DNA of 64,000 nucleotides from positions 310,001-374,000 of the forward strand of contig JBAIAA010000659.1 of the NCBI GenBank assembly GCA_037893245.1. The letters are read 5' to 3'. Origin of the DNA: Crossaster papposus (taxonomy: Eukaryota; Echinodermata; Asteroidea; Velatida; Solasteridae). The translations under genes and the position numbers were made by a program. Position 1 is the stretch's first letter, and each line of letters begins with the position of its first letter. Shown piece by piece: positions 10,801 through 63,400 of the stretch. The notes beneath the pieces are model-generated. The model made no database searches. It was not told the DNA's origin and was given only the letters and a program-made list of their open reading frames with translations.

Positions 10801-13800
10801 ATCAAAATTATAGAACAAACAACCAATTAACACGTTGACTGCCGACTACGAGTATAGTCGTAGTAACAGGTGTACCGGATTCTGCCACTACGAGTATACT
10901 CATAGAAAATGAAAGGTTTTATGTATTGTAAATTGAATACACTGGCATCACTGATAACGCAACAAATACGCTGCTGGCAGTGGTGAGTACATACATGTTT
11001 ATGTTCACATTTTGTTTTTTATAATAAGTACCTATTAAGTATGCGCATGCGTACAATGCTTGGCAAATGGGGGCGCCCTGTGAAATTATGCCCGGCAGTC
11101 AACGTGTTAACAAGAACTAATTTAAATTTGAGCAATAACTAAAGACAAACTGACAAACATACATGTACGTACAACAGGGTCAAAAGAATAATAAGGAATG
11201 AATTAGGTACTGAGTCATTGTTTTTCTTTGTTTACAACAAGTAAGCTTTTGAATTATAATTTGGTTGGTTATTTTGTTTATAGTTGCCAAAGATATATTG
11301 TCCCTATGTCTCATCATTTATATTTCCAGAAAAATGGCAATTAAAAAATATTTATATTTGTTTACGGGGAGACTATCTTTTAAGGTTAATAAAACTTCAA
11401 AAATGCAAAGATTTCAATGAATTGCATGATGGCTGCATGAACTAACAACGCGATAACGATACTGGTTTTGTTTTTAACTCAATCTTGCCTCCCTGCATAG
11501 CTGCATACCGTGTGAGGCCGGACATTACATTGCCAATGATACTAACAAGTGCATTTCCTGCCCAAAGGGTAAGTAATTAACCATTTCGCGCCGGGCGGAA
11601 ATACCGAGCGCGTGACACGGAGCCGGGAACTTTTTAGATGATTTTAGAATTTCATAAATGTTTAAAAAATAATATCCTGCTGGGAACTTATACTCCAGCA
11701 AGACGGTACCCAGGCTAGTTTAGCCTGACCTGCACGCTCCAGTGACTCCATTGAATTGCGCCCGGAAATAAACGGCCCCATTGTTTGGTCTTGCGTAATC
11801 CGCTCTTTGTTACCGAGTCTAGACAGCGTGTTGCTGGGTTATTCACCACGCACGCCCCGACAATGAGCGCGCTCAGCGTGCCTTTGTCCCCGGAGATAAT
11901 CCGCTAACAATGCCAACTCCGCGCTGTTGAGTGGCAAGCCCCAGCAGTATAATATTTATATAATTTTCGGTGCCCCTATTGGGGGCACCCGGCGCCTGGT
12001 ATAGGAAAAAATGCGTGATGCTGGACGGTGGTATTCCCCTCGCTAGCATTTCATGCTGGACTCTATCTGGCGTGTGTTTTGTGGTAAGGTCAGTGGGGTG
12101 ATGACTCATGCATCAGGCTCCCGCAGTCAGAGGGCGCGCGGTGCACGTTGGAGTGTAGTCTGGACTAGCGCATTGCTGGACAGGGTATTTCCTTCCTTTT
12201 CACGGCCGACTGTGGCGTGAATTTTGCGTTGAGGTCAGTGGGGGTGATGACTCATCTGGCACCCGCAGGCATGGCAGAGGGTAGTGTACGTGGAGTTTGT
12301 GGGGCCTCGGACTAAAATTACTGTCGGGTCCCCCTCCCGAACTACCCATTCCCATTTACAATTACTATTTTCCCAAGAATACTTTCGTCATTTTTATGTT
12401 GCTGGCTAACCTAAAACTTTATTTTATCCCCCCCCCCCCTGTATTCATTCTATTTCATTACCAAAGTTCAAATTCACTTCCCAATTGTATATTTTATTTC
12501 CCCAGAAAACTTTCAAGTCATTTTTATAAGTTCAATTATTGAAACTAATAAACAAACAAATAAATAAATAAACACATAGAGTCAGATTATTTATCTTCTC
12601 ATTTCTTTCTTTTGTATTCTTTCTTTGTTATTCTTCAATTCTCTGTTCTTGTTCTTATGAGTTGTCCAACTCATAATTATATAAAATAAGTAAAATAATC
12701 TCCAACTTTGTTTTTCTTCTTATCAAAAATGAAACTCATAAAATAAGGGACTTTGTTTTTTCTTCTTCTCAAAAATGAAACTCATAAAATTACGGAAATA
12801 ATTTTTAGTTTTGCTCGAAGCACACACCGACAAAATTCACTAGTATAAATTCACGCCATCAAGCAAAAAAGTTACAAGGGTCTAGAAAATTCACAAGTGC
12901 AAAATTCACGCCATAAAAGCAACAAAATTACATTGGGCATAATAAAATGTTCAACTGTCCCTTACTGGGTGTGGTTTGAAAATGTTCAACTGTCCCTTAC
13001 TGGGTGTGGTAGAAAATGTTCAACTGTCCCTTACTGGGTGTGGTAGTCCCGGAAACAAGGCTCGAGGCAGAGGCCCTTGTCGCAGATGTCGCACCGGTAG
13101 TGGGTCTTCTTGTTTAGTCCCTGGGATGAGCAGTGCACACATCGCCGGTAGAGGTAGTCACCTGTGTCGTCGGATCTCTCCACGAAGGCGGGGAAGTGTG
13201 GGCCACCAGCGAAGCGGGGGATCGGCGAGGGAGTGTCGCGGTGGGCTCGGTACTCGGGCAATGGCTCGTCGTAGAGAAGTTCCCTGACGAGTTCAAGTCG
13301 AAAATCGAGGAAGGAGGTTCGGTGACCAAGGGCCAGGTAGACGCAGTAGCAGTTCACCAGGGTCAAGTCGAGGAAGTAGAAGAAAAGCTTCTTGTACCAT
13401 TTCAGCGATTTGCGGGCTGCTCGATGATTTGCTGCTAACTGGTCACTCTTGTCAACGCCCCCCATCAGAGCGTTGTACTCCAAGACGGAGGCTGGTTTCT
13501 GTTTCTCTGTCCCCGTCCTGTCGTTCTTGCCGGAGCCACGAATCTCAGCCGTGTGCATGGTGGAAAGCATGCGGATGCTCCGTTTGTCTTTCCACACCAA
13601 CGCCAGGAGCGAGCCGTTCACACCAAGGCTGGCCGTCCGGTACGCTACTTCGCCCCGGTTGAGCTTGACGGTCTTCAGGTCGTCGGGCATGCCCTTGCGG
13701 TTGTACATGACGGTGCCGACCACGTTGAATTTCTCTGCGTAGAGTCGGCGGTACAAATCCGGACTGCTGAAGGCACGGTCGAGGGCAAGGTTGTACCCCT

Positions 13801-16800
13801 TACCCTTCAGATTCTCCAGAAGGTCCAGAACGACTTTCACCGTTGCTGGGAGTTCTCCCTTGTCTTGGCCGGTATATATCTTGAAGTTGGAGCAATACCC
13901 AGCAGCAGCCCCGGTGCTTTGACACAGCTTGTAGACTTTTATACCGAAGCGGGCCCTCTTTCTGGGGTTGTAAGTTTTGAAGCGGAGCCGCCCGTAAAAC
14001 TTCAGCAAGGAGTCGTCCACGGAAATGTCCCGCTGCAGAGAGTACACAGTGGGAAACTTCTCGAGGAGATGGTCGATGACCGGACGCAGCTTGAACAGGC
14101 GGTCGTCGTTGTCCTCCGGCATGGCGCTGTTGTCGTTGAAGTGTAGGGCTTGCATGATGGCAAGGTACCGGTCTCGGGGCATGACGGACCGGAACAGGCA
14201 CGTCTTCAGCAGTGGATCGGTCGACCAGTAGCTGTGAAGGCTGGGGAGATTGGTAATGCCCATCAAGATGCTAAGGGCTAGAAAGGCTTTCAGTTCTCGG
14301 ACAGTCAGTTCGTTCCACTGCCTCATGTGGGAAGAGGAACTTGCGGGGCGCTGAACAGCATACCGATTCGTCTCTTCGACGATTCTTGAGTTCAGTTCGT
14401 CATTGAAGAAGACGGCGAAGGTCTCGCTGCATGTCGACAGACGGTTCAGCCCCTCTCCGATGGCACCACCATCACCGGTGAAGCCGTACTTCAGTGGTGC
14501 GCTGTCCTCGTCTCTCCACCGGAGCGGTGCGGCGGCGGACTGCCTCGGCTGCTTGGCGTACACGGCCAAGGGGACATCGCTGTCTATATCGTACGAAGAC
14601 GAGTGGTATGAAGCATCATCCGAAAAATCACTAACTTCACTACTAGAGTAGTTAGATTCACCCGATGTAACATCAGACATCTTGCTTCGAAAGAAGAGGA
14701 ATAAAGTATTGTGGTGTGTGTGCTTCGAGCGGAAAACAGAACGAAAATGCTAGCAATAACCGCTGCACGCGAGTTTTATGGGCACCGCGCAGCTGTTTTG
14801 TCTTAGAAAAATTCCTTTTAGCAGTGTGTGGGCCGTGGGGGTGATGGGGTTATTCAGCTGTTTTGTCTTAGGAATTTCCTTTCAGCAGTGTGTGGGCCGT
14901 GGCGGTGACGAGGTTATTCACCACGCACGCCCTGACAATGAGAGCGCGTTCAGCGTGCCTTTGTCCGTGGAGATAATCCGCTTACAATGCCAACTCTGCG
15001 GGCTGTTGAGTGGCAAGTCCCAGCGGCGCGGTCTTTTGTTTACGTGTTGCCGGAGTCCTTTCACGCCTGGGGGCCCATTGTAATTGAAATAACCCCGCAA
15101 GAGGCAAACACTTTTTGACTGACAGCCAGTAACCTTTTGGCCGAGTTAACTTTTGGCCGAGTAATAAAACATTTTTTTACAATCCTCCAGCACTATAAAA
15201 TTTATATAATTTTCGATGCCCGAAACTGGGCACCCGGCTGCGTGGTATCGGGAAAAATGCCCGATTTCGGGTAGCCCGGCGCCAAGTGGTTAACAGATAG
15301 CTGGCGTAATAGTCAGGTACCCTGAATGGATGTTGGTGTATAGGGTTGTATGTCTTGATGTGGATACAGGGAACACGTTGGTAAACCTGGTATAATGTTG
15401 GTAAACCTGGTATAATGTTGGTAAACCTGGTATAATTTGTGCTAAGCTGTTTTCTTTTTCGCTAAGTGGAAACACTCTTGGTATTTAAAGCAACTGCATT
15501 CTATTATAAGAATATTTCTCATGTACCAGTAGTAGCCAGGATCCCTGAATGCATTTAACTGGCTGGTAGAACAATTACTGTGTGAATACAGGGAACAAGT
15601 TTTTTTATCTGCTAAAAAGTTATTACAAATAAACACATTTTTTATTTGTTTTTGCTGAACTGCAAAATTACCTGGAAACAGGTTAATCACAGTTTTGAAC
15701 GAAATTTTATTTGTGGATTAGTCAGCATTTAAAAAAAAATTGTTTTATGTCTTGTTATTTGATATTGTGATGAGTTTCTTATTTTTAGTTTTAAATAAAA
15801 AAATGAACATTAGTATACAATTTGAATTATCTTGCAACTGGTATACAATGTATTACAAGGGTAGACATTTAGCATGTTTAGTACATGCACTGGTACATTG
15901 TACATGTGTACACATTTGGGTTTGTGTGATGAAGGGTTACTGAATAATTTAGGTGTTTGTACTATCAGTGAACCCCTTTTGTTTATGAGTTTGTCTTGCA
16001 TGGTAAATGATTCATATTAAAGGTAGTATACACCATTGGTAATTACTTGAATTATTGGGAATGAGTGGATTTGGGGGGTTGTATTTTATAGTAAATATTG
16101 TTTACCTGACCTGTTCAAAGTTTGACAATCACGGATGCTAAGAAAAGCAAGAAAAACGGCGTTAGTTTTCAACCAGCTTCAGGCAGTGGTTCTTATGTTG
16201 TTCTGGACGGCGATCGTGATTTTTTTAAAATAAAATAATTTTTAAATTCTTAATAATTTGGTGGTAAAAAAAATTGATATCTGCAAATGGTGTATTCTAC
16301 TTTTTAAAGTGCTACAATGCATTGCATGCAACAAAATATAACTTATTAATTCTGATCTTGCATGTATAACTTTCTGCAAATTGTCGTTGATTTCAGGCAT
16401 GCAACCTTGTCCATCATATGTCCAGTCACAAGTAAATTGCAAGTCTAGTCACAAGTAAATCACAAGTCTAATCACAAGTAAATGACAAGTCTAGTCACAA
16501 GTAAATGACAAGTCCAGTCACAAGTAAATGACAAGTCTAGTCACAAGTAAATGACAAGTCCAGTCACAAGTAAATGACAAGTCCAGTCACAAGTAAATGA
16601 CAAGTCCAGTCACAAGTAAATCTCAAGTCTAGTCACAAGTAAATGACAAGTCCAGTCACAAGTAAATGACAAGTCCAGTCACAAGTAAATCTCAAGTCTA
16701 GTCACAAGTAAATGACAAGTCCAGTCACAAGTAAATGACAAGTCCAGTCACAAGTAAATGACAAGTCCAGTCACAAGTAAATGACAAGTCCAGTCACAAG

Positions 16801-19800
16801 TAAATCTCAAGTCTAGTCACAAGTAAATCGCAAGTCTAGTCACAAGTAAATGACAAGTCCAGTCACAAGTAAATGACAAGTCCAGTCACAAGTAAATGAC
16901 AAGTCTAGTCACAAGTAAATCTCAAGTCTAGTCACAAGTAAATCTCAAGTCTAGTCACAAGTAAATGACAAGTCCAGTCACAAGTAAATGACAAGTCTAG
17001 TCACAAGTAAATCGCAAGTCTAGGCACAAGTAAATGACAAGTCCAGTCACAAGTAAATGACAAGTCCAGTCACAAGTAAATCTCAAGTCTAGTCACAAGT
17101 AAATCGCAAGTCTAGTCACAAGTAAATGACAAGTCCAGTCACAAGTAAATGACAAGTCTAGTCACAAGTAAATCGCAAGTCTAGTCACAAGTAAATGACA
17201 AGTCCTGTCACAAGTAAATGACAAGTCCAGTCACAAGTAAATGACAAGTCTAGTCACAAGTAAATCGCAAGTCTAGTCACAAGTAAATCGCAAGTCCAGT
17301 CACAAGTAAATCTCAAGTCCAGTCACAAGTAAATCTCAAGTCCAGTCGCAAGTAAATCTCAAGTCCAGTCACAAGTAAATCTCAAGTCTAGTCACAAGTA
17401 AATGACAAGTCCGGTCACAAGTAAATCACAAGTCCGGTCACAAGTAAATCACAAGTCCAGTCACAAAAATCTTTCCATAAAAATAGGTTTCAGGTTTTAT
17501 TTGGGACACGAATGCCGATAAATTTGGCAGGAAATCTTTCCTTCCTCCATCGTAGATACCTCTGTTCGACCCAATAACCCCTACGGTTCTGAGGCCTGTG
17601 TGCCGTGCGGCCCGGGCATGAAGAGTGACGAAGGAACCAGTTGTTACAGCACTTGTCATGTCCACACAGACGGATTTCATTATGAACTCCGCCAGCTGGC
17701 AGGGTGAGTGTACATAGCCATGAGAAGCTGAGTTGACTTGCATATCTGCCAGGTTTTAGCCTATTATTATTAATAATTCTTTCTGGTAAACAGGGTGCTG
17801 TGAGTCTGGGGGATCCTTCGTGGCCCGCCTTTCATGGGATTCTCCTGGAAAACTGCCTAGAATCAGTCTATCGTTACACTTCTATACAATAGTTAATTTA
17901 TTCTTTTGAAATGTTCTCATTCTTTTCCTTTGTGATAATTGTTCCTACCTATTGTCTTATATTTGTATACATTCCTGCCGTGAATATGGCCACTGATGCC
18001 GGCACGGCGTTAAACCCTAAACTCACTCACTCACTCACTCTTTCTGGTAAATGACACCAAGGATCCCTCAAACGTTCTATGCACTGTAGCTCGCAAGCCT
18101 GAAAAAAACCTGTAGAGAGAAGACAATGAGAAGAAGGAACATTTTTAGAAGTGGGAGGAAAACCCTAGAAGAATATCCTGGGGAAAACCCACGGAGTCAG
18201 AGACTGAGAACCCAATCCACATATTGACCCAGGCAGGGTTCGAACCCGGGTCACAGAGATGAAAGACGAGGAAAGAACCGCACGTGTTTACATCTGTATT
18301 CAAATGTGCCCGGCAGTGATGCGCACCCATCATGCTTTACATAAAATTTGCTTAAAGAGTGACGTCGCAGTTCAGATCGCCTTTGAATTTTGTGACCTGA
18401 TGTCATCTCTTAACAAAATTTATGTAAAACATGATGCGTGCGCATACTGCCGGGCACATTTGAATACAGATGTAAACAGAGGCACATCGTCTATATAACG
18501 CCAAATATCATTTCAATCTGTGAGGGTTGGGTACAAAATCCGGTTGAATTAACACTGAATAATCCTTCTCCCCTCTCTAACATCGTTAGGAGCCACTCTG
18601 TGCAGACACATGCCAGTTTCACTTCTCGAGGCAGCCGTTTCTACCATCACTTTAACATCAGCCTGTGTGGAACGAAGGAGGGCAAGGGTATTGCCACCTG
18701 CTACGAGAACGTCACAGACGTGGTCAGTAACTTAGTCTTGTAGTGCTGTCCAGTCATTAGTAATCATAAGACATCATAAGTCAGGTCACAAGTCAGGTCA
18801 CAAGACACAAGTCAGGTCACAAGACACAAGCTGCGTCACAAGACACAAGCTGCGTCACAAGACACAAGCTGCGTCACAAGACACAAGCAATACAAAGGGG
18901 TTAACAATAACAAAGGAATGACTTCGTCATTGTTCATTTGAATATTTTTGGGTTGAATTTGGACTTGTGGTGGAGATGTGGTGGACTTGTGATCTACTCA
19001 CTGATTTCTTTAAGGAGCACCAACATAGAGCATTAGAAATGGTTCGAGGGGAACACCATAGGCATTTTCTCATTAGAATCTCACATCATTGAGGGCGATT
19101 CACTACTCGGCGCGAAAGCGAACACGAATGCAAATTTGTGACGTCAGGGCAACTTTTCGCACTGCGAATTAACAAGCTGTGTGAACACATCTCAACTCTG
19201 GCGAATTGCAAATTTTTGTCACGTCATATTTGCATCGCATTCACTTTCGCGTAAAGTATGAACTAGCCTTGAGGCCAAATAAAAAAAAATTGTTTCTTGT
19301 CCTCACACGCAATCCTTTTTGTTGCTGCAGCAAACATTTAGGGGTTTCCCCCCCTCCAATTTGTTTTAATCAAAAACAAGAAAATTACAAAAATTCAGGT
19401 CATTTTCACATAGGCATTTTTCTTCTGATCATAATGACTCTCTTTTGCAGTTTTTCAGAGCATATCGGTAGTATGCTGGAGTGGAGTCTAATTATTATCA
19501 TACGACGCGACACTTTATAAATTACGTTGAAATTTATACAAATATGTTCGGCAAAAACCAAAACCCAATTGTTATTTTATAAAGTTCGGATCAGAAACTT
19601 ATTATTTTTTATTTCGACTTATCTCTAGGTACATTTAGGGGAAGTTTGCTGTCTTTTTCATGAAGAATTCTCATTTTCTCTAGAGCAACCTCTTAACCAG
19701 TTCGCGCCGGGATTATTTTAACATCGCCGAGTCGAGGGGCGGGATTATTTTTAACGAAACTCGATCCGAAGCGGGTTCAGGCCAATAGTGCCGGGAAGCA

Positions 19801-22800
19801 CACCCACGCATTTCCGGCCTTGCTCACTGCTGGCAGACATTTCCGAACTTGAACTTGGCGTGTTTATGCGTCATCCGTTTTAGAATTTGTGGGAATGTTT
19901 GCGTTTATATACGTCATCCGGCACGAAGTAGTCAAACTAGCCTCCCGAGATGACCCATAGAGCATTCTGTTTTTCTGAGGTGAAGCAAGAGAAATGTAAT
20001 CCTCCATGGATCACTGAAGGAGGGTGTTTTTTTACAACACCATGGGACAAAGCAGGAAAGAAAAAACAAATTCAAATTCGGCCATCCTGAAATGGCGGCA
20101 ATCCTTTAACTTTCAGGATCCTATTCAAGAAATTATTTCTGCAAGGAGCAACTTTTTAATACACACTTCGTTTCAAGAATTGGTTGTCTTTCCAGTATTT
20201 GCTTGGAGACAACTGTTTATCCTAATCAATAAAGATTATTGCATATTTGAACCGCAAGTTGAGAATAGTTCTGCTGATTCTGCGACAAGCCAATCTTCAA
20301 ATAATTTATTAACAATCCTGAAATTGTATTAACACTAGAATTTTTCTAGAATTCTGGCTAATCCCTGCTTTTAATAACCATAACCATACAGGACGCATCA
20401 ACAGATCCTAGTTTTAAGAAGAAGGTGGGTGTGGCTTTATTAACTTGTAAGGGCGTTATGAAGCCCTACGTTCCTCATGGTTACATACGGAAGAGTACAA
20501 AATTGAATCCAGTAGACCAACAGGGGAGCGTCGCATGATATTTGGACCCCTATGAAATTGGGACTCTTTTCCTCAATCCTCCAAAATCAATGTGATTTTG
20601 CACACACCTTAGAGAGTTGGGGTTAATCCCTGTACCTCCCCAAGACTGTTACTCCCTGTACTGCCTCAAACCACCCTGCCTGTTACTCCCTGTACTGCTC
20701 CCAAATTGTCCTGCCTGTTATTCACTGTACTGTCCCAAATAAGCCATTTATAAGCGTGACCTCGAGTTAAATTTGAATAATATCTGGTACACTGACTTGC
20801 TCACACAGCTTGGCACCGTTGAACTTTTAATTCTCCAGACCAAAGACACTGTTGCCATATTACATGATTCTGGGCAAGCTCTTGCATAGTTACGTAACAG
20901 ACGTTCAGCACCAATACATTGTTCACAATAGGTGAGAATGGCCCAAAGACACAAGACCATTCCGGAGCTGGGGGTTGCTAGCGTAAGGCTTGCCCCGAAT
21001 AGCAACAGTGTCTTTTGTTTGGAGAATTTAAAGTTCAACGGTGCCAAGCTGTGTGAGCAAGTCAGTGTACCAGATGTTATTCAAATTAAACTCGGGGTCA
21101 CCACATAAAGTTGGCCAACCCAACTTTATGCCCTCTGGATTGATATTTGTACTCTTCCTGTTAAACACCACCAGTTAATCATAAACCATTGCACAGCATG
21201 GGTGATTGGGTCATTAGATTTCATATGTCACCTCTAATACCGGGGTCCAAAGCCGTGTCCAAATTACTATGGCTATGGCTATGGCTTGAAATTACACACT
21301 TGTCTATGGTAGCAGCTGCAGCCGTTTCTCTCGGACTCATGTCATTTAAACATTCTTGGTTCCCCTGCAGCTACAAGAATTGATGTGGTTCTAGTATCAA
21401 AGCTGCTTAACAAAAACATTTTTGAGTACATTGTACAGCCACTAGCAGTATACATTGCATAACATGTTAGCTGGTAATCCATTTTTTGCTAAGCCAATTT
21501 TTTTACGTGCTTACCATATTTAAATGCTTAGCTGCTTTGCTAAACTGCCTAGCAGTTTAATAGCCTAATAGCTGCTTAAACTGGTGATGGGTTATCGCTA
21601 CAAATTACATGCATTAACTCTAACCCTGCCAGACAAAAGGTGTAACAAATCTGGTGCACTTTGATGCATTCAACTATCAACACCTGGGCCCAATTTCTTA
21701 GCTCTGCTTACCGTTGGCGAAAAATCCCTACTTACTATAGCAGAAAATTTGGTGCTTACGGTAAACGTATTTCACGCGTTAGCAAGGAATTTTGGTCTCT
21801 GAGCATGCGTACATCCCGTAACTAAGGATTCTGTGCTTACAGGGTTAGCGCAAAATTTTTCTGCTAGTGCGGTTAGCGGAAAATGGTTACCATAAGCGCG
21901 AAATTCTGTGGTTAGCAGAACCAAGAAATTGGGCCCAGATCTTAAGTAGCCACATCTGAGACGATGAGAGCTAGTCCACAGTGAGCAATGCCACTGTTGT
22001 ATTCTACTTTATGTGGGGAGCACAGATATCACTGTCATACAAACATGTACTTTGAAACGCAAAGGGTGTGAATGTTTTGATTCAAGGTTGATTCTGGGTT
22101 GTGACGTGGGAAAACCTGTGAAGCCTCCACTCCCTGCCCCATTTTCAGGCAAAATTTAAATTATAATATCTGTTATCCTTTCTTCGAAAGCTTAAGGATT
22201 ATGAAGAAAACAAAGTTGATGGTTACATCTGTCGGTCAACCATCATCCCACCGGCAACAAGGAATCTAGGTGTGCTCTCAGCTCAACCAATCAGGTAAGA
22301 GAATGAGTTGACTCATTAGGGGGTTAGTTGGGGTGGGGTTTGGGGTAGTAGGGGGGTATGAGGGTATGAGGGAGGGGTTGATAGGAGGTGGTACAAGGGA
22401 AGGGGGTGGGGGTGAAAAGTATAGTGATGGTAATGAATAGTAATGTGTACATAAATGTATGGATATTTGTTAGCATTCTTTCAGCGTCGCCCCCTTCTTG
22501 GCAGCGAGCCAGGTCGGCTTGGCACAGAATCCTGATCCCCTTCCACCCTTCCATCAGCCTCACTTTCTGCCTTTGGCAATGAACCAGGTCGGCTTGGCAC
22601 AGAATCCTGATCCCCTTCCACCCTACTGTCAGCCTCTGCACTTTCTGCCTTTGGCATCGAGCCAGGTCGGCTTGGCACAGAATCCTGATCCCCTTCCACC
22701 CTACTGTCAGCCTCTGCACTTTCTGCTTTTAGCAGTGAGCCAGGTCGGCTTGGCACAGAATCCTGATCCCCTTCCACCCTACTGTCAGCCTCTGCACTTT

Positions 22801-25800
22801 CTGCCTTTGGCATCGAGCCAGGTCGGCTTGGCACAGAATCCTGATCCCCTTCCACCCTACTGTCAGCCTCTGCACTTTCTGCTTTTAGCAGTGAGCCAGG
22901 TCGGCTTGGCACAGAATCCTGATCCCCTTCCACCCTACTGTCAGCCTCTGCACTTTCTGCTTTTGGCAGTGAGCCACGTCGGCTTGGCACAGAATCCTGA
23001 TCCTCTTCCACCCTACTGTCAGCCTCTGCACTTTCTGCTTTTGGCAGTGAGCCAGGTCGGCTTGGCACAGAATCCTGATCCTCTTCCTCCCTACTGTCAG
23101 CCTTACTTTCTGCCTTTGGCAGCGAACCAGATCGGCTTGGCACAGAATCCTGATCCCCTTCCACCCTACTGTCAGCCTCTGCACTTTCTGCTTTTGGCAG
23201 TGAGCCAGGTCAGCTTGGCACAGAATCCTGATCCTCTTCCTCCCTACTGTCAGCCTTACTTTCTGCCTTTGGCAATGAACCAGGTCGGCTTGGCACAGAA
23301 TCCTGATCCCCTTCCACCCTACCATCAGCCTCACTTTCTGCCTTTGGCAGTGAGCCAGGTCGGCTTGGCACAGAATCCTGATCCCCTTCCTTCCTACTGT
23401 CAGCCTCACTTTCTGCCTTTGGCAGTGAGCCAGGTCGGCTTGGCACAGAATCCTGATCCCCTTTCTCCCTACTGTCAGCCTCACTTTCTGCCTTTGGCAG
23501 TGAGCCAGGTCGGCTTGGCACAGAATCCTGATCCCCTTTCACCATGCTCCTTCCGCAACCCTACCATCACCATTTGACAGCGAGCCATCACAGCTTTGCC
23601 ATTCTAGTTTTGTCCTGAACTTTGCCATTGCTGTTTTTGTTCTTTGTTTCAGCCTCGGCGATCGCTTGATCGGAATCACCAGACGCAATTCGCTCCAGAA
23701 TCTGAACGAGACCATCTTTCTTCCAAACGCTGACGGGCCTGGTGATCTCCACTTCTTCTACCACTCAGCATGGTACTGAATCACTACATTGATTACCTGG
23801 ATTATCCGCATTGGACTCTGAGCGCAGTAGCTTTCAATGTTTACAGAGGAACCTTCAAATACATAATATCTTTCTGCAAAATGTTTTGTGGTGATTTAGG
23901 CTGAGCACGGTTGATTGTTGGTTGTGGGAGTTTCTTTTGATCTGTGACGGTTATTTGATTACATAATTGAAAGGGTTTTTTGGTTTTTTTAACAAAACAG
24001 AAAAATTTGCAAGGAAATTTGTTTACTGGATTAAAAAGACCAGCTTACTTCTCTCTGATGTTCATAGTTTTGAATTGTGTACATGTATGACATTGTACAA
24101 TTTCAGAGAGTAGGGGTTATTTTAGTATTTTTGTTCATAAGCAAGATACTTAACTGCAATTATCTTTTTGGTGGGTATCTGCAGTCCCACTATGGCCTGC
24201 CCAGAGGGCTGAAGCACCATCATTCCTCCCCCTACAGTGATCGAAGCGTATTTTAGTATTTTTGTCCATAAGCAAGATACTTGACTGCAGTTGCTACATT
24301 TGTTTGGTATCCGTAGGCCTACCATGGCCTGCCCAGAGGGTCGTAGTACCATCATCACCCTCCGCTGTGACCTGAGCGCTAGTGGGTCGGGCTCTTTTCA
24401 CCTCCCTGAGGAGTGCCCCTCTGGTACCTGTGACGGCTGCGCCTTTCACCTGCTGTGGCGCAGTGAGCACGCCTGCCCGCTATGTCACGAGGGAGACTTC
24501 AAGAACATCAAAGGAGAATGCAAGGAAGGGAAACAGCAGATACAGTACTCGTGGAAGACACCCAAGTATGACCACATTTTCTTCTTATCAGGCTTTTAAA
24601 AATTCCTACTTTTCGATGAAGGTGTTTATTTTATGGTGTTTTTTCTGTAAAATGCGGCTATTTCTTTGTTAAATTTATACATTTTTTTTCCCATAATGGG
24701 AAGTCCTAATTAGCCATTAAATATGAATTTTTATATCATTTTCATAACTAATTTCTGTAGAGATTCCTACGTTCCCAACGTAGCCAAAATAATTCGACAT
24801 GATTTAATGCAACGATGAACCATGCCGCTCTCTTTAAAGTGTTGTTTTGGTTGGAAGTTGGAAAGGGCCATCTTTAATGTAAAACATTGACAACACCCAC
24901 AATCTTTTGCGAAAGTATTTTTCAGCATTCCTTACGGCCTGCGAGCAGCGCGTAATTTGATTGGCTTCATTGTTATTTTATCATTGTTATTTTAGCACCT
25001 GTGCAGTCGTAACATTGCTGGCAGTGGCGATGAATGTTGCTTTGATGCTGGACTGTGCTAATCCCCTTCTGTTTAACAGTTCCATGGTCTCACTGTTCTC
25101 TCTTGTTATTGTTCAGGTTCTGCACCGGTGGTAACTCCCTCCCTGATGATCTGACCCAGCCCTGTGAGATGGAACCCTGGTACAATCAGGTTCCCTGGTA
25201 CGCCCAGGCGTCGATCGCTGCCTTCATGGGATGTGTGGTACTCCTCGTCACGTGTGCACTGTACTTCTGGAAGCGCAACAGAAAGTGAGTTCACGATTGC
25301 AGGCTTTGAAACGTTTTATTTGTTGAATAGATTTGTCTAAAGGGCGACATTTATGCAGCACCGGAATAGCAGTTCATGTAGTTGAGTTCTTGACAAGTTC
25401 TCACTAGTCCATCAAAAGTCCTCACTTGCAGAAGACCCTTTCCTGACCATTTTATACCATGTCCTACAACAGGTTAGAGTACAAGTACCAGAAGTTGGTA
25501 GCGTCAGCCAATGGAGAGCTACCGGCAGCCGAGACATGCGCCATCGAAGACGGAGACAACGAAGACGACGTCCTCTTTGAAGACGGAGGCAAGAAGTCGC
25601 ACGGATTCTTTGGGAAGTTCCTCTCTAGACCCAGAAACGACAAGGTGAGGCAAAGGCTGTGTCAGAATTACAAGGCTATGGCTAGGCATAACACACAGGT
25701 CAATAGGAAGTGGCTGCAGCCGCTCCCATAGGTGCTTGTGTACTTTACTTACAAGCTGGAGCTAAATAATATGGACCTGAAATTCAGAGAGCTACTTAAG

Positions 25801-51469: not shown

Positions 51470-54400
51470 GTGAGAAATCTTGAATAATGCAGACATGCAA
51501 CTTTTCCACGGATCTGCAGATTTCGGCATTTTAACCCTTGCTCTATGAGAGTTGTTTATTGCAAGTCGGTGGTATGTGCCAATGCACTGCCAGAAATTGT
51601 CCTCAAGATTGGTGATTCCACAATTTCTCCTTCCCCTTCAGTCAGGAATCTAGGAGTCATTTTTGATTCTTCAATGTCTATGTCCCCTCACATAACTTCT
51701 GTCTGCAAATCTCTCAACTTCCATTTACGCAACCTTCATCGCATCCGAAAGTTCATTGATCTCAACACCTGTATTCATACAGTCCGTTCCCTCATCATTT
51801 CTCGCCTGGATTATTGTAATTCGTTACTGTATGGTGTCAATCAGGGTGAGATCAACAGACTACAAACACTCCAAAATCGTGCCGCTAGGCTTGTTTATTC
51901 TGTTGATCGATTCCATGACGCCTTCGCATCTCATTACGCAACTACACTGGCTACCAATGAATTACCGCATACTTTTCAAATTACTTCTGGTTGTGTTCAA
52001 ATCCCAACGCGGTTCATCACCCTCTTACCTCACAGACCTATTATTCTCACATCAGTCTGGTCGGGAGGGGCTTAGATCTTCATTAGATAAATCCCGTTTG
52101 CAGGTTACAACACACACACAAGCTACAGGCGACAAAGCGTTCTCCATCGCAGGTCCTAAAGAATGGAACAAAATCCCACGCTATATCCGAGACTCGCCTT
52201 CAGTTCAGATTTTCAAGAAGGGCCTCAAAACTCACCTGTTTTCCAAAACCCATTAGTAATATGTGCTATACCAGGTTGTTGACCTTGTATTTATTGTTAT
52301 TGTTTTTGGTTTTGTTTTTTCCTTCTTTGTAAAGCGCTTTGATCTTGGTAAAAGCGCTATATAAATACCTGTATTATTATTATTATTATTATTATTTGTG
52401 TGCATTGGAGGGTTATTTGCAGTACCAGACAATTTGCGTGTGGAATTTGAATAATATCTGGTACACTGACTTGTTCACACAGCTTGACACAGTTTACATT
52501 TAAATTCTCCAGACCAAAGAAACTGTTGCTATATCACGTGATTCGGGGCAAGCCTTACGCTAGCAACCCCCAGCTCAGGAATGGTCTGGTGTCTTTGTAC
52601 CATTCTCAACCATTGTGAACAATGTATTTGTGCTGAGCGTCTCTAACGTACATGTAACTATGCAAGAGCTTGCCCCGAATCACATGATATAGCAACAGTG
52701 TATTTGGTCTGGATAATTTAAAGTCAAACTGTGCCAAGCTGTGTGTTCTTGTATCGTATTACGATCGAGAATCGAAACACAAAAGAGACCAAAGGATCCT
52801 CGAAGGACAGTTTGCTTGTCCGAATTCGTTCCTCGATCGTTGGGGCAAGCGCTAAGTAATAGGGTTAGGGTATAGTAAAGGAATAAAGGAAAACACAATA
52901 TCGATCCTCGGTCGTTATGTGGTTCCCGACTGTGTGAACAAGTCAGTGTACCAGATATTATTTAAATTCCACACGCAAATGGTCAATTGGTACTGTAGTG
53001 CATTGGGGCACTACTGTTTATCAGTAACAGCAATAACTTGGCATATGGCTTTGCTTATCAGTGTAATACACTCTGTACTCACAGCATGACCATTTTGTTG
53101 TAATTATGTGGGGTGTCGTGGCCGGGCGGTTAAGAACCCGGTTTTCTGTTCCACAGAGCGTGAGTTCGAGTCCCGGTGTCGACACGTGTGTCCTTAAGCA
53201 AGGCAATTAAACCACTATTGCTTCGTCCTTCGGATGGGACGTAAAGCTGGAGGTCACGTGTGTTGTGTAATACACGTAAAAGAACCCAGTAACACTTATC
53301 GCTAAGAGGAGGGGTTTGCCCCGGTGTTCCTGGCAGTGCCTCGGAATAGGCAACTAGATTGATGGCGCTTTACAAATGCAGATTGGATTGGATTGGATGA
53401 CCAAGTTGACCTCCAGTGTCATTTGGCATTCCTTGGAGTGCATTGGAGGACAATGCGATAAACATAGGTAGTTTTTGGGGCGAATATTGAAGTGCATTGC
53501 AGTGTAAACATGAGCAAAGGTAACCACAACAAAATGCTTTCAGCTTGTTTCACACTGGCACCCACGGAGTCTTGCGCACACATTTAATATACAGACTCGA
53601 TTATAATACAAGAGAGGAACAAATTGGGAGAAAAAGTAATTTTTGTTTGTCTCTAAATTGCACGCTTCCCTTTTCTGCAGACAATGATGAGAGCGATTCT
53701 AGCTCCAGCACGGAGTGTCACCCGGACTCTGCATCTAGCATCCACGACGATAACGTCTCGGTCTTTAGTAGCATCAGCACCACTACAGTCTCTTCATCGG
53801 GGTCCCTGGGAAGACCCCATGTGTCAAAAACCAAAAGTAATTTACCTAAAGATTTGCCCAGACAGCCACCAAAAAGTGAAAATCAAACTGATTCATGCCT
53901 TGCTGAAACTGAGCAGTGCGAACAGGGACGTGGTCCCAACCCTGGTTCCCCCACAGAAAGACGTCACAACATGGGCTGTAGGACACAGAACATCCAGGAC
54001 AGGATGATTCAACGGGAACAGACACGAAGTCCTCCTGGACTACACACACAGCCGAATGCTTCAGCAAGTACCAACAAAAAAGTAGAACAGTCGACGAGGA
54101 ACAGAGAAATCCCCACTGGCTGTAATCCTGTGCCACATGAACCAAACACAAGCGAGTTGAGTAGCTGCCACGACAGCCACAAGAAGGCTTTTTCGCCAGG
54201 TTCAGGGGATGCTAGCTCTGGAGACATTAAACAAATGCCTCTGGGACCAGCTCCATGCAAGGCTCCCTCGAGTACCACTCGGCCAGCCCAAGCATCTCTC
54301 AATCTACCAAACTTTTCTTCTACCCGGTCCCACCCTCTTCCTTACAATCACATCGACAAGGACAAACAGACGGCAGTCATTAGGCCGATGGATTTGACGT

Positions 54401-57400
54401 CTATCTCTCAAGTTGAGGTGGTGGTCAGTGAGATCAGGACTCCGGCAGTCTTTTGGATTCAGCTGGCCGACTCGCCGCTGGACACTTTTGCTCAAGAACT
54501 AAAGTAAGTTAACTGAGATAGTAAGATAACTAGTGTAATTTACTAGGAACCATAACCATCCTGGCAAATCCTAAATACATTTTTAGCATTTGTTTATGTA
54601 ATACCTTGCCTGTACATTGTACATGTTTCATTGTTTGCCATAATTTTGTCCACGGAGAGGAACAAACTTTATCAGACTATTGATGTAATATAAGGACCTA
54701 GTCGTCAGGCAAAGCCTGTTACTTCTGTCGTTGTTCTTGCAGCCAAGTCTACGTCAATTTCCAGAACATTCCAATCCCAACGCCAGAAATTGGCACCTTC
54801 TGTTGTGGGTGTTTCACTGAAGACAATAACTGGTATCGGGCTCGTATTGTAGGTAAGTTATGACTACGTATAGACTTTAGATATTTTCTGACTACAGTCA
54901 AACTCCTTTATAAGGACCTTAAGACTTAACAAATTACCTTTTTATAATTAGTATTATTTATTGTATTATCGGTAATAGAAAGCAAAGAAAAGAAAGACTC
55001 GGGATGTTGTGTTGGCGGTGCTTTTATTATCAGGGTTTGACTATATTGCCACATTTGTCCGAACCAACTTCTTTCAGTTATTTTTATTACATTGTGCCGC
55101 CTCAATATTAAGCTTGGGCAAATCCAGCAATTTTAAAATCGATTCCCGCATAGAATCGCCCTAGGTTACTCAATATTGATAGTTTGTTTTTCATTTGCCC
55201 ACAGGAATTCAGGACCACACACCAGGGAAGCCACTCAACCTCGACAACCCAGCAAGCATCATCGTAGACGTTATCTACGTGGACTATGGCAACCGAGAGA
55301 AAGTGAACCTGACCCGGGTGCGCGTGATCAACCCTGCCTTCACCAATCTTCCGGCTCAGTCTTTCTGTTGCTCAATGGCCAAGGTATGTCCATAAGCAAG
55401 ACTGTTTTCTCCAATAAAATTAAAATTCTAATCCTCCTGGGCGATTGGATGCAACCCCTAGCACGGGCCTTAACAATATTGTACCAGGAAGGTATAGTTC
55501 TTCAAGCTAGAAGATTTACAACAATACAGAATTTATACCAATCTTGTTCAGTATTGCCGTATTTTCCAACCTTCCTAAGTGCTTTGGTGCATACCTTGGA
55601 GCTAGCTTTAAAAGTGTTGTTTCAGCTCACAAAGATATGTCCTTAAGCAAGACAGTTTACAACAATAAAGAATAGCTTCTCGACCCAATCAACATTTTCT
55701 CCTTTGCCCCTTCAGCTTGCTTTAAAAGTGTTGTTTCAGCTCACAAATGTATGTCCTTAAGCAAGACAGTTTACAACAATAAAGAATAGCTTCTCGACCC
55801 AATCAACATTTGCTTTTTTGCCACCTTGGAGCTAGCTTTAAAAGGGTTGTTTCAGCTCACAAAGGTATGTCCTTAAGCAAGACAATTTACAACAATAAAG
55901 AATAGCTTCTCGACCCAATCTACCTTTTCTCATAATCTTCAATTCCTACTTCCTTCCAGATTAAACCGCCGATCCTCACTAGTGGCTGGGTCAAGGAACA
56001 GGTCGACTTCTTTAAGTCCTTGCTCCTGGGGAAAAAGGTGATGGCATCGGTCCAGGTACCCAAGGGTCACTCCATTCCCTCCCTGGACATAATCGCACCT
56101 TTCATGGTCAGCAGTGGTGGCAGCCGTCGTATTATTCAGGTATTCAGTGATAACAGACAATGCCAATTCACATCGAGATACTGTCACCAATTAGACCATG
56201 GGATGATCGTTAAGAATGTTCCAAATCGTGGTGCATATTTTGCACCACCAGTCATAGTGCAGCATACTCGATATTGTACATGATCTTGGAAAATTTATGA
56301 TTTTTGCGTAACTCGAAACTCAAATATCTCAAAATTGGTAACCATTCTCTTGAGATTTGACTTATCGAGATGTCACTGTATGTAGAAATGTCAGACTCCC
56401 TAACTGTTACAATTGTATTTTTCAGTCAATTAATTGAGAAAGAAGTTTGAAATCCCTTTTTATTTCTGGCGATCTAATTTTCACCAGGTTGATGTTGCAG
56501 AAGCCATGGTTGACAGGCAGATGGCTCAGTACTTGCCAGGCTTTGGTCCCCCAGATAAGGACCCTCTCAACCCCCTGCATTCAGTAGCTAAACAACCCAA
56601 GACCTCAGGTAAGCCAATGAGTGGGTCATAGGGGCCGTAGTGATATCTCATTAACCCCCTGCATTCAGTGGCTAAACAACCCAAGACCTCAGGTAAACCA
56701 ATGGGTGGGTCATAGGGGCCGTAGTGATATCTCAATAACCCCCTGCATTCAGTAGCTAAACAACCCAAGACCTCAGGTAAGCCAATGGGTGGGTCATAGG
56801 GGCCGTAGTGATATCTCAATAACCCCCTGCATTCAGTAGCTAAACAACCCAAGACCTCAGGTAAGCCAATGGGTGGGTCATAGGGGCCCTAGTGATATCT
56901 CAATAACCCCCTGCAATCAGTAGCTAAACAACCCAAGACCTCAGGTAAGCCAATGGGTGGGTCATAGGGGCCGTAGTGATATCTCAATAACCCCCTGCAT
57001 TCAGTAGCTAAACAACCCAAGACCTTAGGTAAGCCAATGGGTGGGTCATAGGGGCCGTAGTGATATCTCAATAACCCCCTGCATTCAGTAGCTAAACAAC
57101 CCAAGACCTCAGGTAAGCCAATGGGTGGGTCATAGGGGCCGTAGTGATATCTCAATAACCCCCTGCATTCAGTAGCTAAACAACCCAAGACCTCAGGTAA
57201 ACCAATGGGTGGGTCATAGGGGCCGTAGTGATATCTCAATAACCCCCTGCATTCAGTAGCTAAACAACCCAAGACCTCAGGTAAGCCAATGGGTGGGTCA
57301 TAGGGGCCGTAGTGATATCTCAATAACCCCCTGCATTCAGTAGCTAAACAACCCAAGACCTCAGGTAAGCCAATGGGTGGGTCATAGGGGCCCTAGTGAT

Positions 57401-60400
57401 ATCTCAATAACCCCCTGCAATCAGTAGCTAAACAACCCAAGACCTCGGGTAAGCCAATGGGTGGGTCATAGGGGCCGTAGTGATATCTCAATAACCCCCT
57501 GCATTCAGTAGCTAAACAACCCAAGACCTCAGGTAAGCCAATGGGTGGGTCATAGGGGCCGTAGTGATATCTCATTAACCCCCTGCATTCAGTAGCTAAA
57601 CAACCCAAGACCTCAGGTAAGCCAATGGGTGGGTCATAGGGGCCCTAGTGATATCTCAATAACCCCCTGCATTCAGTAGCTAAACAACCCAAGACCTCCG
57701 GTAAGCCAATGGATGGGTCATAGGGGCCGTAGTGATATCTCAATAACCCCCTGCATTCAGTAGCTAAACAACCCAAGACCTTAGGTAAGCCAATGGGTGG
57801 GTCATAGGGGCCGTAGTGATATTTCAATAACCCCCTGCATTCAGTAGCTAAACAACCCAAGACCTCAGGTAAGCCAATGGGTGGGTCATAGGGGCCGTAG
57901 TGATATCTCAATAACCCCCTGCATTCAGTAGCTAAACAACCCAAGACCTCAGGTAAGCCAATGGGTGGGTCATAGGGGCCGTAGTGATATCTCAATAACC
58001 CCCTGCATTCAGTAGCTAAACAACCCAAGACCTCAGGTAAGCCAATGGGTGGGTCATAGGGGCCGTAGTGATATCTCAATAACCCCCTGCATTCAGTAGC
58101 TAAACAACCCAAGACCTCAGGTAAGCCAATGGATGGGTCATAGGGGCCGTAGTGATATCTCAATAACCTCCTGCATTCAGTAGCTAAACAACTCAAGACC
58201 TCAGGTAAGCCAATGGGTGGGTCATAGGGGCCGTAGTGATATCTCATTAACCCCCTGCATTCAGTAGCTAAACAACCCAAGACCATAAAAGGAAATTTGC
58301 CAAATCTTATACAGTAAAACTTAATGACAACATTTTGTTTGTGTCCGAACATAGTGTTCGAATACTGATCACACTGTTATGGGTATGCTGCAAAGGGCTC
58401 CCTCACACGTTTGTTTGTTTTTATTTATTTTTTTCTTCATCCCCTTCGCTTTCACCTTAAGACGGAAACAAAATATATAACAAAATTTAAAATAACAGCC
58501 TAACTTGGTATTGTGGTAGAAATTTATAAACAAATAGCTAAACATACAGCTAAATAACTTTGGCAGCATACACTCATCTAAACAGAATGTTAATTTGCAG
58601 CGATTTGACTGCACTGTTGTAATATTCTTATCATTTTGTTAAATTTTACCTTTTACAGGTTGTAATACAAGTCAGTGCACTGGGACCTCTAGCAGATCAG
58701 GAAAAAATGAGAGCCAGTGCGAGTCTTCAGGGAATAAAGACGGCAGAAAGCTGTGTGACGATAAAAGCAACAAGTGCACCTCAAAGGAATCACTTGGTTC
58801 AAAACAGACAACGAAAAAAAATGGCACGGCGCAGGAACAGAAACAGGCAGAATGTGACCGGTCGACCAACTCTTGCAAATCTTATACGCAAACAGAAAAT
58901 GATGTCGCTGGATATTCAGACTTTGAAGAGAATAAAAGTAACCCCTTTCCCAGATCCAGACACCAATCAAACCCTGATTGGAGGCAAACGCAGCAGTCAG
59001 AGGGCCAATCCGGAAGCAGGCCCCAGAAGCATCACAGTCAGTGCAGTGAACCAAGAGAAAGTTGCATCAACCAAGATGCACCAAAGCAGACGTCACCGCG
59101 CCAAGACACCAAGCCTAAAGAGAGCAGCTCTGCAGCAATGTCCCCACCACCACACTTGAGAGAGAATCCTAACAAGAACCAACCAGGATGCTCTAGAAAA
59201 CACGGCTCTTGGGCAGGACGGGGAAACAGGCTTAACAACTCCAAACCAGCAACTGCACCCCACAATCCGCGGAAGACCGATCAAGAGGTTCGTCATAGCA
59301 GCATGGAAACCAATTCGGAGAGGGCAGGAGGGTCAGCGCACCCTCAGCCAACATGGGAGGCAGGCAATGTTGGCTCCAGATCAACAGAGCCACACAAAAG
59401 TTTCACAGATAATGTCAAGGTGGTGGAGAAGTCTGTCAAATCGGGGAGTGAAAACGTTGCAGAATCTAGCAACTTTCCAGAGGAGATTGGGCTCGGCAGA
59501 ATAAGTCCTAACTCCTCCAGTGGAGTTTCCAGCTGCAATTCAGCACCAAGTGACATGAGCAGCATCCAGCAGAACACAGCCCAGTCTGGCAAACAGAATA
59601 AGGATAACACTTGCCAAAGTAACCAGAAGCAGAGCAGAAAAGATACAATCACAGAGGATCTCAAAGACATCCTTGGCCTACACTCGGAAGATACACAAAC
59701 TAGGAGCTTAAAGCGAGCTGGCACAGATCAGCGAATGAAATGTGAAAAGCCATATGCAGTAGGTCTCAATAAGCCACTGAATGCTTCTTCAAAGAACCTC
59801 TCATCAAGCACCAGCTCTTTTGTCACTGCTGTTACAGACCTGGACACAGAGGTGTTCCAGTCAGATAGCTCCTCGCTCCATTGCGGAAACACAAACTCTG
59901 GAGCATCTTCATTTGGTTCTTCCAGCAGGAGTGTCAATACAAAGAGAAGGGACGTTACCAAGTCGTCTTCAATTCTTCCACTTCAGCTTGGCCGGAGAGA
60001 GAGTCTGCCAACACACAATGGCTGCATCGGGCTGGCCATGTCTCACATCGCTAGTCCACAAGAGTTCTACGTTCACCTGATCAACTCCGACGCAGAGAAG
60101 CTGGATGTCCTGGCCAAAGATCTCAACAATTGGTACAATGGTAAAGAGGCTGAACAATTGATGGACAAGGCAGCTCTTGAACCAGGCAGGTATTGTGCTG
60201 CCAAGTTCAGTGAAGACGGAACCTGGTATCGGGCCAAGATCCTTGAGATTCAGGAAGGAAACAGCATTCAGGGATCGGCCAAAGGAGCCGATAGTAAAGT
60301 CGATGCTACAAGGGGCCCCATGGCCAAAGTCATGTATATTGACTTTGGGAACCAGGAGTGGTTGGCGGCAGGCACTCTCAAACTACTTCAACCCGAGTTT

Positions 60401-63400
60401 TATGCACTACCAGGCCAAGCGATCAAGTGTTGCCTGGCGCACATTGAACCACCCAAGAAAGAAGAAAGTTGGAAGAAGGATGTTGAAAAGCTAGACGGTG
60501 AGGTTAATTCTACTTCCTGATCCCTCAAAATCCACCAATGTGTTCTGGAGGATTTTGTATAATTTAGGAAGATGGAGCCTGGCCTCTATTAATCAGTTCG
60601 TGCTAGGATAATTTTGACATTGACTGGTCCCAGGCACGCTTGTGACGTGTTTATTAGTCATATGCTTTTAATTCCTGAAAATCTTTGCGTGTGCACACGT
60701 TCTTTGACGCGAACTGGTTAATATAAAAACAGGCTACATGCTCCCTTTAAATTTAAAGTACAAATACGTGCTCTTAGGTTTTTGCACAGTGATGGTATTT
60801 TGAAAATTCAGAGAGGCTTCTTGGAAAATTTAAAAAGAAAATAAGGATTGAAGAAAATGAAACTTGAACTTGTCATCACTCAAATTTGGTGGCTCTCTGC
60901 GCTTGTGATGTAAAAAAAAGAAGAAGAAAATTGGCAATTTTTTTTTCAAATTTGAACTTTGCAGGAAAAGCCAAGGGTGACAAAGGAGGGGTCGGAGGAT
61001 GGTCGGATGAGACGGTCCAAGAGCTTGCCAGGATGACTGGCTACACCAAGATGCTTCTGGGTAGAGTCGTGAGGGAGTACAACCCAGACAGGTATAGCCG
61101 CTCACTGGCACTGGGGGGCTTGAAAGGGTCTAGGGTGGGGGTGCGCATCGGAAACAGGTTCTCTATTTTAATAAAGACCTAGCTGCTGATTGGTCGAAAC
61201 TCGTTCACATGGGCAGGGGTTGTAGTAACAGGCGTTATTTGTAGTAACGGGCGTTATTTGTAGTAAAGGGGGGTTATTTGTAGCAACGGGCGTTATTTGT
61301 AGTAACGGGCGTTATTTGTAGTAACGGGCGTTATTTGAAGTAACGGGCGTTATTTGAAGTAACGGGCGTTACTTAACGGGTGTTATTTGTAGTAAGCTAA
61401 TAATGGCCCCTGAACCAGCTATGATCAAGCATGTACGCCAATAAATGGCCAAATAATACAACACTCCTAGGGCAATTTGCAAGAATACAGCAATACGTCT
61501 CTACTTACGTGAAAGCACGTGTCAAATATTGATACTGCGCATGCTATATGTGACCTGTCACCACAAAATAAGAGTAAAGTCGCACGATGTGATTCAGAGA
61601 TATGGCCATCCAAAGTCAACATTTGAAGGGGTGGTCAATTTTGAGATTTTGCGTAATTTGGAAAGCCCAAGTCCTCTACATATTCCCATTTTTTGGGTGC
61701 GATCAGATGATCAAAAACCTCCTAAATCACACGATTTTGCGTAGTGTTTGCGTAGTTAGTGTTTGGATTAAAGTCCATTAGTGGTCTAAATATGCAAATC
61801 AGGTCCTCGTAAGTATCGCACGTTTTCAAAATTTTGATAATTTGTTGATTATACAATAGTTTGTATGTGTGAAAAATTTCAGGAAGAAATAATGATTAGA
61901 ACATAGCCGTTGCTATGCTCAACCGAACCTTGTCCTGTTTTGTAATCTTTTGCAAGTTTCGTTTATGATGTTTAACCCTAACTCCCTACCCATTTTTACT
62001 TACACATAACCTGAATCCTGCAAAATCCTCCAATTCCTAAATTGTTAAAACTCCAAGTAACCTGAATCCTGCAAAATCCTCCAATATTGGTCACTGGTGA
62101 CCATACAGCCTGTATCCTGCAAAATCCTGCAGTCTTGCCCTGGCTGCAGTCAGTAAAAACCCAAGTAACCTCAATCCTGCAAAATCCTGCGATGCATCAA
62201 ACTCCAAGTGACCTCAATCCTGCAAAATCCTTGTGTGTCACATTCAGCCTGATAACCTGAATCCTCCATATTCCTGCAGGGGTAAAACCCCAAGTAACCT
62301 CAATCCTGCAAAATCCTGCAATGCATCAAACTCCAAGTGACCTCAATCCTGCAAAATCCTGCATTTTGCAATGAGGAATTTGGAGGATTTGGGAGGGTTA
62401 GGGTTAAAGTAAGTTTTCTCACAAACACGTTTTGTGAAACCCATGACTTTATAGAGCGCTGTAAAAAGTATTTATCGCAAAACCCCCAAGTGTTATTTAC
62501 CATTGGAAAGCTCTCTTTCTCAAGAATTAAAAAATACCAATATCTCAATTTCTAATATTTCCAACTTTACTCTCATTTTGTGGTGACAGGTCACATATGT
62601 ACGCAGGCATGTAAGGGATAGACCACAGTGAACAGCTAGTCTGGTCTTAAAAATTGGGTAATAATAATAAAATGCATTGAAGAGACAAGGTACCGTGAAA
62701 ATAAGCTAAAATATAGCCCCTGAAGACGAACACATAATCCTGGAAATATCGCTGAACAAAATGTTTATCTGGTTTGTTATCACGGAATCTGGGTCCAATT
62801 TCATAAAACATAAAGCACAAAAATGTGCTTAGCATGAAAATTCTTACAAATCAGTTAATGTTTATTGTTTGTGACTAGTACATGTATTCAGCTGGTTTTT
62901 GCTTAGCATGAAAAGTACATGAAGTTTGGGCCAGTACCTTATTTTTACTGTGGAAGACTTGTTTTGTGCTAAGCACATTTTTGTGCTTACATGTTTTATG
63001 AAATTGGCCCCTGGAACTCGTAACCAACATTACAAATTACTTAGTAACCTCTCAGACAATGAAAGAGAAAGGTTTTCAATGTGGTTTTTTTGTGGGGATT
63101 TAAAATTTTTGAATAAAACAGGCTACATGTGAAAACAGCACATTTGACGTTTATGAAGCTCACAAAAGTTGTAGTAAAACCCACTGGTGCTTTTGACGCA
63201 CTGACGATGTGATTGTGCGAATCTTGATGAACAATTTGAGCAGCAATTTCTAAGGTTCTGAAATCAGATGCATTTAACCAGTTCGCGCTGGGATTATTTT
63301 AACATCACCGAGCCGACGCGCAGGATTATTTTTAACGAAACTCGATCCGAGGCGGGTTCAGGCCGCCAGTACCAGGAAGCACACCCACGCATTTCTGGCC

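Follow-up and report, generated by a model that had tools for sequence, protein, structure and literature searches.

What becomes of a gene in which the boundary between an exon and its intron, splice donor included, has been copied in tandem some twenty times? The question is raised by a 64,000-nucleotide stretch of the genome of the starfish Crossaster papposus (contig JBAIAA010000659.1, positions 310,001 to 374,000 of the forward strand; hereafter the window), in which a Tudor-domain gene carries an 84-bp minisatellite built from the end of a coding exon and the start of the following intron. The reading that we favour, at a probability of roughly three in four, is a minisatellite of the type termed mirages in amphioxus, where the first donor is spliced, the other units lie silent in the intron and the length of the array is free to drift. 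A preliminary description of the locus had proposed that exon ends might be formed at any of 20 donors, with consequences for Tudor output, and had named neutral recent expansion as the alternative; it is this alternative that best fits the evidence below.

Tandem Repeats Finder (TRF) placed the array at 56569-58284, with a period of 84, 20.4 copies, 97% matches, 0% indels and a score of 3285. A unit-by-unit cut yielded 20 complete units, each exactly 84 bp long and carrying 0-3 differences from the consensus, and a donor-less 21st that breaks off at 36 bp (AAGACC followed by ATAAAAGG); the exact spacing and the partial unit first described are confirmed. Every unit comprises 40 bp of coding-exon end followed by 44 bp of intron start, the latter beginning with the donor GT. 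The parts of the array and its intron are given here, with a slash marking the exon-intron boundary:

56488..56608, plus strand: coding exon whose last 40 bp, with the donor, belong to the first repeat unit; entered in phase 0 and left in phase 1, its translation closing with ...VAKQPKTS G (open frame with neighbouring exons; the 81 bp preceding the array identical between haplotypes at 81/81 positions)
56569..58248, plus strand: array of 20 complete 84-bp units (TRF and unit-by-unit cut; 48 units in the other haplotype)
56609..56617, plus strand: first donor, CAG/GTAAGCCAA, the top-scoring donor of the 8 exons and proposed as the one used (weight-matrix score)
58249..58284, plus strand: incomplete 21st unit of 36 bp, lacking a donor (unit cut; junction identical in the other haplotype)
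58285..58658, plus strand: remainder of the intron, acceptor TTTTACAG/GTTGTA (gene model)

The donors had been described as intact despite point changes nearby, and GTAA was indeed kept in 20/20 complete units. The fuller motif CAG/GTAAGC was whole in 14 of the 20; units 2 and 8 read GTAAA, and the bases before GT were TTAG in units 6 and 15, TCGG in unit 11 and TCCG in unit 14. Scored with weight matrices not trained on the host species, on which all donor and acceptor scores given here are based, the 20 donors ranked between the 98.2nd and 99.6th percentiles of GT sites in the window. Stop codons in frame were present past the donor in all 20 units, as previously noted, though as three per unit (unit columns 61, 70 and 73) and not as the single TAG then reported. 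The predicted RNA secondary structure of three units was not above that of shuffled sequences (z = 0.48).

The position and frame of the exon at 56488-56608, like the acceptor at 58659, are consistent with a gene model, built from the sequence alone, in which 8 exons between 53681 and 63734 join in one open frame. All 8 were stop-free in both haplotypes, with pooled nonsynonymous divergence (pN) of 0.019 against synonymous divergence (pS) of 0.040; the first exon (53681-54503), a linker, showed no constraint, its 25 nonsynonymous and 7 synonymous differences giving a pN of 0.040 and a pS of 0.037. The Pfam Tudor domain PF00567 was matched in both stretches submitted (E = 1.3e-22 and 3.6e-23), and the closest solved structures for the first Tudor stretch were those of TDRD1 (4b9w, E = 9e-15). 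These matches bear out the earlier recognition of a Tudor gene, and the host is best described as a Tudor-domain gene; 33 matches were listed when the assembly was searched for the Tudor family. The array lies past the first Tudor domain and ahead of a Ser-rich linker, which is carried by the next exon:

58659..60497, plus strand: linker judged by eye to be rich in Ser, with part of a Tudor domain (PF00567, E = 2e-22 over 58661-60520; pN 0.015 against pS 0.038 between haplotypes)

The 84-bp unit was sought throughout the 1.02-Gb assembly and was found in two places, the window and contig C721 (203864-207932, minus strand). The search scores only its best candidates, both of the two for the unit, and match counts are therefore lower bounds; the downstream exon gave at least two matches, one per contig. 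The C721 array comprises 48 complete units, with the same partial end and the same end junction as that of the window, and the intron bearing it measures 4407 bp, as against 2050 bp in the window. Between the two contigs, mismatches made up 5.2% and 6.3% of two stretches of flanking intron and 2.0% of the large exon, with 0/81 in the exon preceding the array. The two contigs are regarded as two haplotypes of one locus, with 20 and 48 units respectively. CAG/GTAAG was found in 48/48 units of the longer array, where the donor is unchanged from -3 to +5, and G stands at +6 in 8 of the 48. The perfect 84-bp period is broken in this allele by one extra base in unit 17 (85 bp). Three in-frame stops follow the donor in 40 of the 48 units, two in 5 and four in 3.

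Across both arrays 24 distinct variants were counted, 13 of them present in the window and 15 in the other haplotype, the extra base of unit 17 having been removed beforehand. Four variants were common to both, where chance would give 0.77 (P = 0.008), and it is for this reason probable that the ancestor of the two haplotypes already carried several units in tandem. The remaining 20 variants were private to one haplotype, which argues that each array has been reshaped since. The intronic part of the unit differed by 2.5% within the window array, 4.9% within the 48-unit array and 4.0% between haplotypes, all of them lower than the flanking-intron values. Recurring unit types at a lag of six units were observed in the 48-unit array (7 pairs), a pattern that fits block duplication. 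Where concerted evolution within a cluster, a feature of mirages, is concerned, the private variants and recurring unit types would speak for it, but units of the 48-unit array are on average no closer to one another in their intronic part than to those of the other haplotype, and the within and between distances do not on their own demonstrate homogenisation.

Selection on the donors, under which their bases would vary less than the rest of the unit, was not supported. Over both haplotypes, variable columns numbered 4/9 in the donor and 17/75 elsewhere, the difference being not significant and towards more variation (Fisher p = 0.22), and the probability of a variant-free GT by chance was 0.56, that of a variant-free GTAA 0.31. 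Exonic and intronic columns did not differ detectably when the two haplotypes were taken together (8/40 and 13/44 variable, p = 0.45). On the favoured reading it is the youth of the array, and not selection, that would account for the intact donors.

Minisatellites across intron-exon boundaries are known from the Adh3 and globin genes of amphioxus, where they were named mirages and where, by the authors' reading of reverse transcription PCR (RT-PCR) and Adh3 data, regular splicing is undisturbed (PMC3087553). The starfish array resembles them in having tandem units that span the boundary (40 bp of exon and 44 bp of intron, the exon being placed by its open frame and Tudor match), in retaining the splice signals, AG/GT being kept in many amphioxus units and GTAA in 20/20 and 48/48 complete units here, and in differing in unit number between haplotypes, as do the 6 and 3 units of BflGb6; its donor boundary is of a kind affected in amphioxus too, where repeats can involve donor and acceptor boundaries alike (PMC3087553). 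It differs in its host, which is not a cephalochordate, in its size, at 20 and 48 units against the 6 and 3 of BflGb6, and in keeping the donor in 68/68 complete units; normal splicing, which has an RT-PCR basis in amphioxus (PMC3087553), is a prediction here. The Adh3 mirages are also reportedly unstable in somatic tissue.

Two further systems are comparable. Short tandem repeats of 60 and 108 bp lie over splice sites of the conserved PGBD5 gene in lancelets, their copies being imperfect and the 108-bp repeat a triplication (PMC3902484). Genes of human segmental duplications contain boundary minisatellites of variable copy number that may create new introns, but these average four copies of a 30-bp unit, occur in paralogues and are accompanied by altered splicing with transcript support (PMC2812944). 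A search of the open-licence literature on sea stars and echinoderms, judged mostly by title, found no such report. We therefore classify the starfish array, on its structure, as a mirage-type minisatellite that is larger than the globin cases and belongs to another phylum, and for which undisturbed splicing is predicted.

The array would have originated by tandem duplication across the exon-intron boundary and grown by unequal exchange or slippage. In splicing, the acceptor at 56488 would be paired with the nearest strong donor, that at 56609, across an exon of 121 nt, and copies 2-20 (2-48 in the other haplotype) would be removed along with the intron that contains them. This expectation draws on the work of Carranza and colleagues, in which two identical CAG/guaagu donors placed 52 nt apart in exon-defined minigenes led to exclusive use of the upstream donor, and in which flanking introns longer than about 250 nt favoured the donor nearest across the exon (PMC9225289). 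The upstream flanking intron measures 348 nt in the window and 329 nt in the other haplotype, and the last donor lies 454 and 458 nt, respectively, from the acceptor. In either haplotype these distances are above 250 nt, which leads to the prediction that the first donor is the one used and that the array is silent. With copies 2 onward silent, their number could drift freely, and with the first donor alone in use the array is probably harmless. Splicing from any of the 20 donors, as originally envisaged, is not what exon definition predicts in the passages cited (PMC9225289, PMC3087553).

Several considerations weigh against this interpretation. When near-equal human donors compete, no more than 60% of events go to the upstream one; without a filter for strength, about 60% of events favoured the downstream site, and in classical in vitro experiments it was the intron-proximal donor that had the advantage (PMC9225289). 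The published competition was between two donors in transfected minigenes, as against 20-48 in an echinoderm. In the 48-unit allele, exonic columns vary less than intronic ones (3/40 against 11/44, the inserted base excluded and the comparison made post hoc), and this, together with its donors unchanged from -3 to +5, may point to constraint, though as a hint at most; the 20-unit allele is without such a contrast (6/40 and 6/44 variable columns).

The alternative that survives best is a splicing valve, in which splicing would draw on more than one donor, and competition among donors together with array length would set how much of the Tudor mRNA is productive. It draws on the strength of the window donors, on the modest upstream preference in human genes and on the difference in length between haplotypes. 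Any donor but the first would also bring a stop within the intronic part of the first unit, where the frame would run ...TSGKPMSGS and then terminate, and the three stops in each window unit uphold the earlier proposal that later donors would give a truncated product. Against the valve stand the minigenes in which only the upstream of two equally strong donors was used (PMC9225289), the exons of 205-1717 nt that later donors imply, and donor columns that are not conserved relative to other columns. A valve of this kind is consequently held to be unlikely, and the notion that 20 competing donors tune or switch Tudor output was not supported. Its allele-dependent form, under which some transcripts would reach later donors and be lost to premature stops, such that alleles of 20 and 48 units differ in Tudor output, is likewise considered improbable.

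A hidden coding repeat was also considered, whereby 60-nt introns would be removed between units and the eight in-frame residues VAKQPKTS added per unit to a disordered linker. An internal acceptor-like site, ATTCAG/TAG (AATCAG in units 5 and 11), does lie 24 nt before the donor in each unit, the 24 nt are in frame and stop-free ahead of the Ser-rich linker, and the geometry is the same in 20/20 units. The site is weak in most units, however, with a score of 2.65-2.66, near the 81st percentile for AG sites across the window; it falls to 0.65 in units 5 and 11 and rises to 4.66 in units 2, 13 and the partial one and to 6.67 in unit 1, where it lies inside the exon. The gene model's 8 acceptors score 4.9-11.8, and outside unit 1 no internal acceptor exceeds 4.66. 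An exon of 24 nt would moreover be very short, and in the long allele the 1-bp insertion of unit 17, which falls within the 24-nt piece, would cause a frameshift, which leaves this reading highly improbable. Lastly, although tandem arrays are difficult to assemble and the conclusion rests on contigs, not reads, an assembly artefact is an unlikely source of the array, and its false expansion during assembly is given scant credence, because two contigs carry it at different lengths with largely private variants and one common end junction, and neither the window nor the 29 kb of C721 that were read contains an N; the artefact check set out in the preliminary description is answered in part by the array's presence on the second contig at a different length.

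A second tandem array is found in this gene, two introns upstream. The features concerned are:

55205..55383, plus strand: exon of the preceding Tudor domain, donor AAG/GTATGTCCATAAGCAAGAC (gene model, Tudor match)
55593..55931, plus strand: 114-bp unit in 2.9 copies, probably an earlier and since decayed array of the 55384 donor (TRF, site scores, alignment)
55960..56139, plus strand: exon between the two arrays (gene model)

Donor-like sites of the 114-bp array lie at 55635, where GT has been lost, and at 55749 and 55865, one of which is weakened and one intact. When one copy was aligned with the true donor region of its intron the score was 58, whereas the best of 1000 mononucleotide shuffles reached 41. 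The intron (55384-55959) is 576 bp long in the window and 347 bp in the other haplotype, where a single 114-bp copy is present. The 114-bp array is probably an older, decayed case of the same process in the same gene, and seems to represent its decayed end state.

Other observations were made in the window and the assembly. Exons resembling ELAPOR1 (PF23091, PF23031, PF23087, PF23089) lie upstream of the Tudor gene at 7941-24599 on the plus strand, and among them a 572-aa open frame at 13031-14749 on the minus strand encodes a transposase (PF13843, E = 1e-83; PF13842), which we take to be piggyBac-like. Further arrays in the window include a 78-bp unit at 22498-23543 (13.6 copies, 92% matches), in which each strand has a long open frame (of 367 aa on the plus and 242 aa on the minus), and a 23-bp unit at 16420-17466 (45.5 copies, 93% matches). 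Imperfect arrays of about 43-49 bp at 62157-62362 of the window and at 3303-3477 of sampled piece L013 (position taken on the first record of a multi-record file) look related by eye, as reverse complements. Many tandem arrays, boundary-spanning or not, were seen among 19 sampled, unannotated 10-kb pieces of the assembly, of which 4 are filled end to end (L015, L023, L024 and L029, with periods of 86, 105, 43 and 357).

The mitochondrial contig (C1841, 16,330 bp) has a stop-free COX1 with the expected Asn at AAA under table 9 (by eye); 16S and the ND2 and ND1 frames, the ND genes being named by eye, are on the minus strand and COX1 on the plus. An inversion involving 16S, ND1 and ND2 between starfish and sea urchins has been described (PMC3308324), and the mitochondrial code and gene order mark the source as a starfish (Asteroidea). 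A contig of more than 5.2 Mb (C8, sampled as L035, L037 and L038) carries COX1-family matches at two places, without internal stops, and may belong to a bacterial symbiont or be a contaminant. Amphioxus, with its mirages and its genes of the GFP (green fluorescent protein) family, was considered as the source before the starfish; searches with PF01353 and with mNeonGreen, neither of which had a positive control, gave no match, and the mitochondrial contig indicates a starfish.

The locus extends boundary-spanning minisatellites to an echinoderm. Within one assembly it sets 20 and 48 near-identical strong donors in natural competition, and so would allow the rule that splicing uses the donor closest to the upstream acceptor to be tested well beyond the published two-donor minigenes. 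With a young case and a probable decayed one only two introns apart, the gene may further offer a series in which such repeats either feed new introns or die out.

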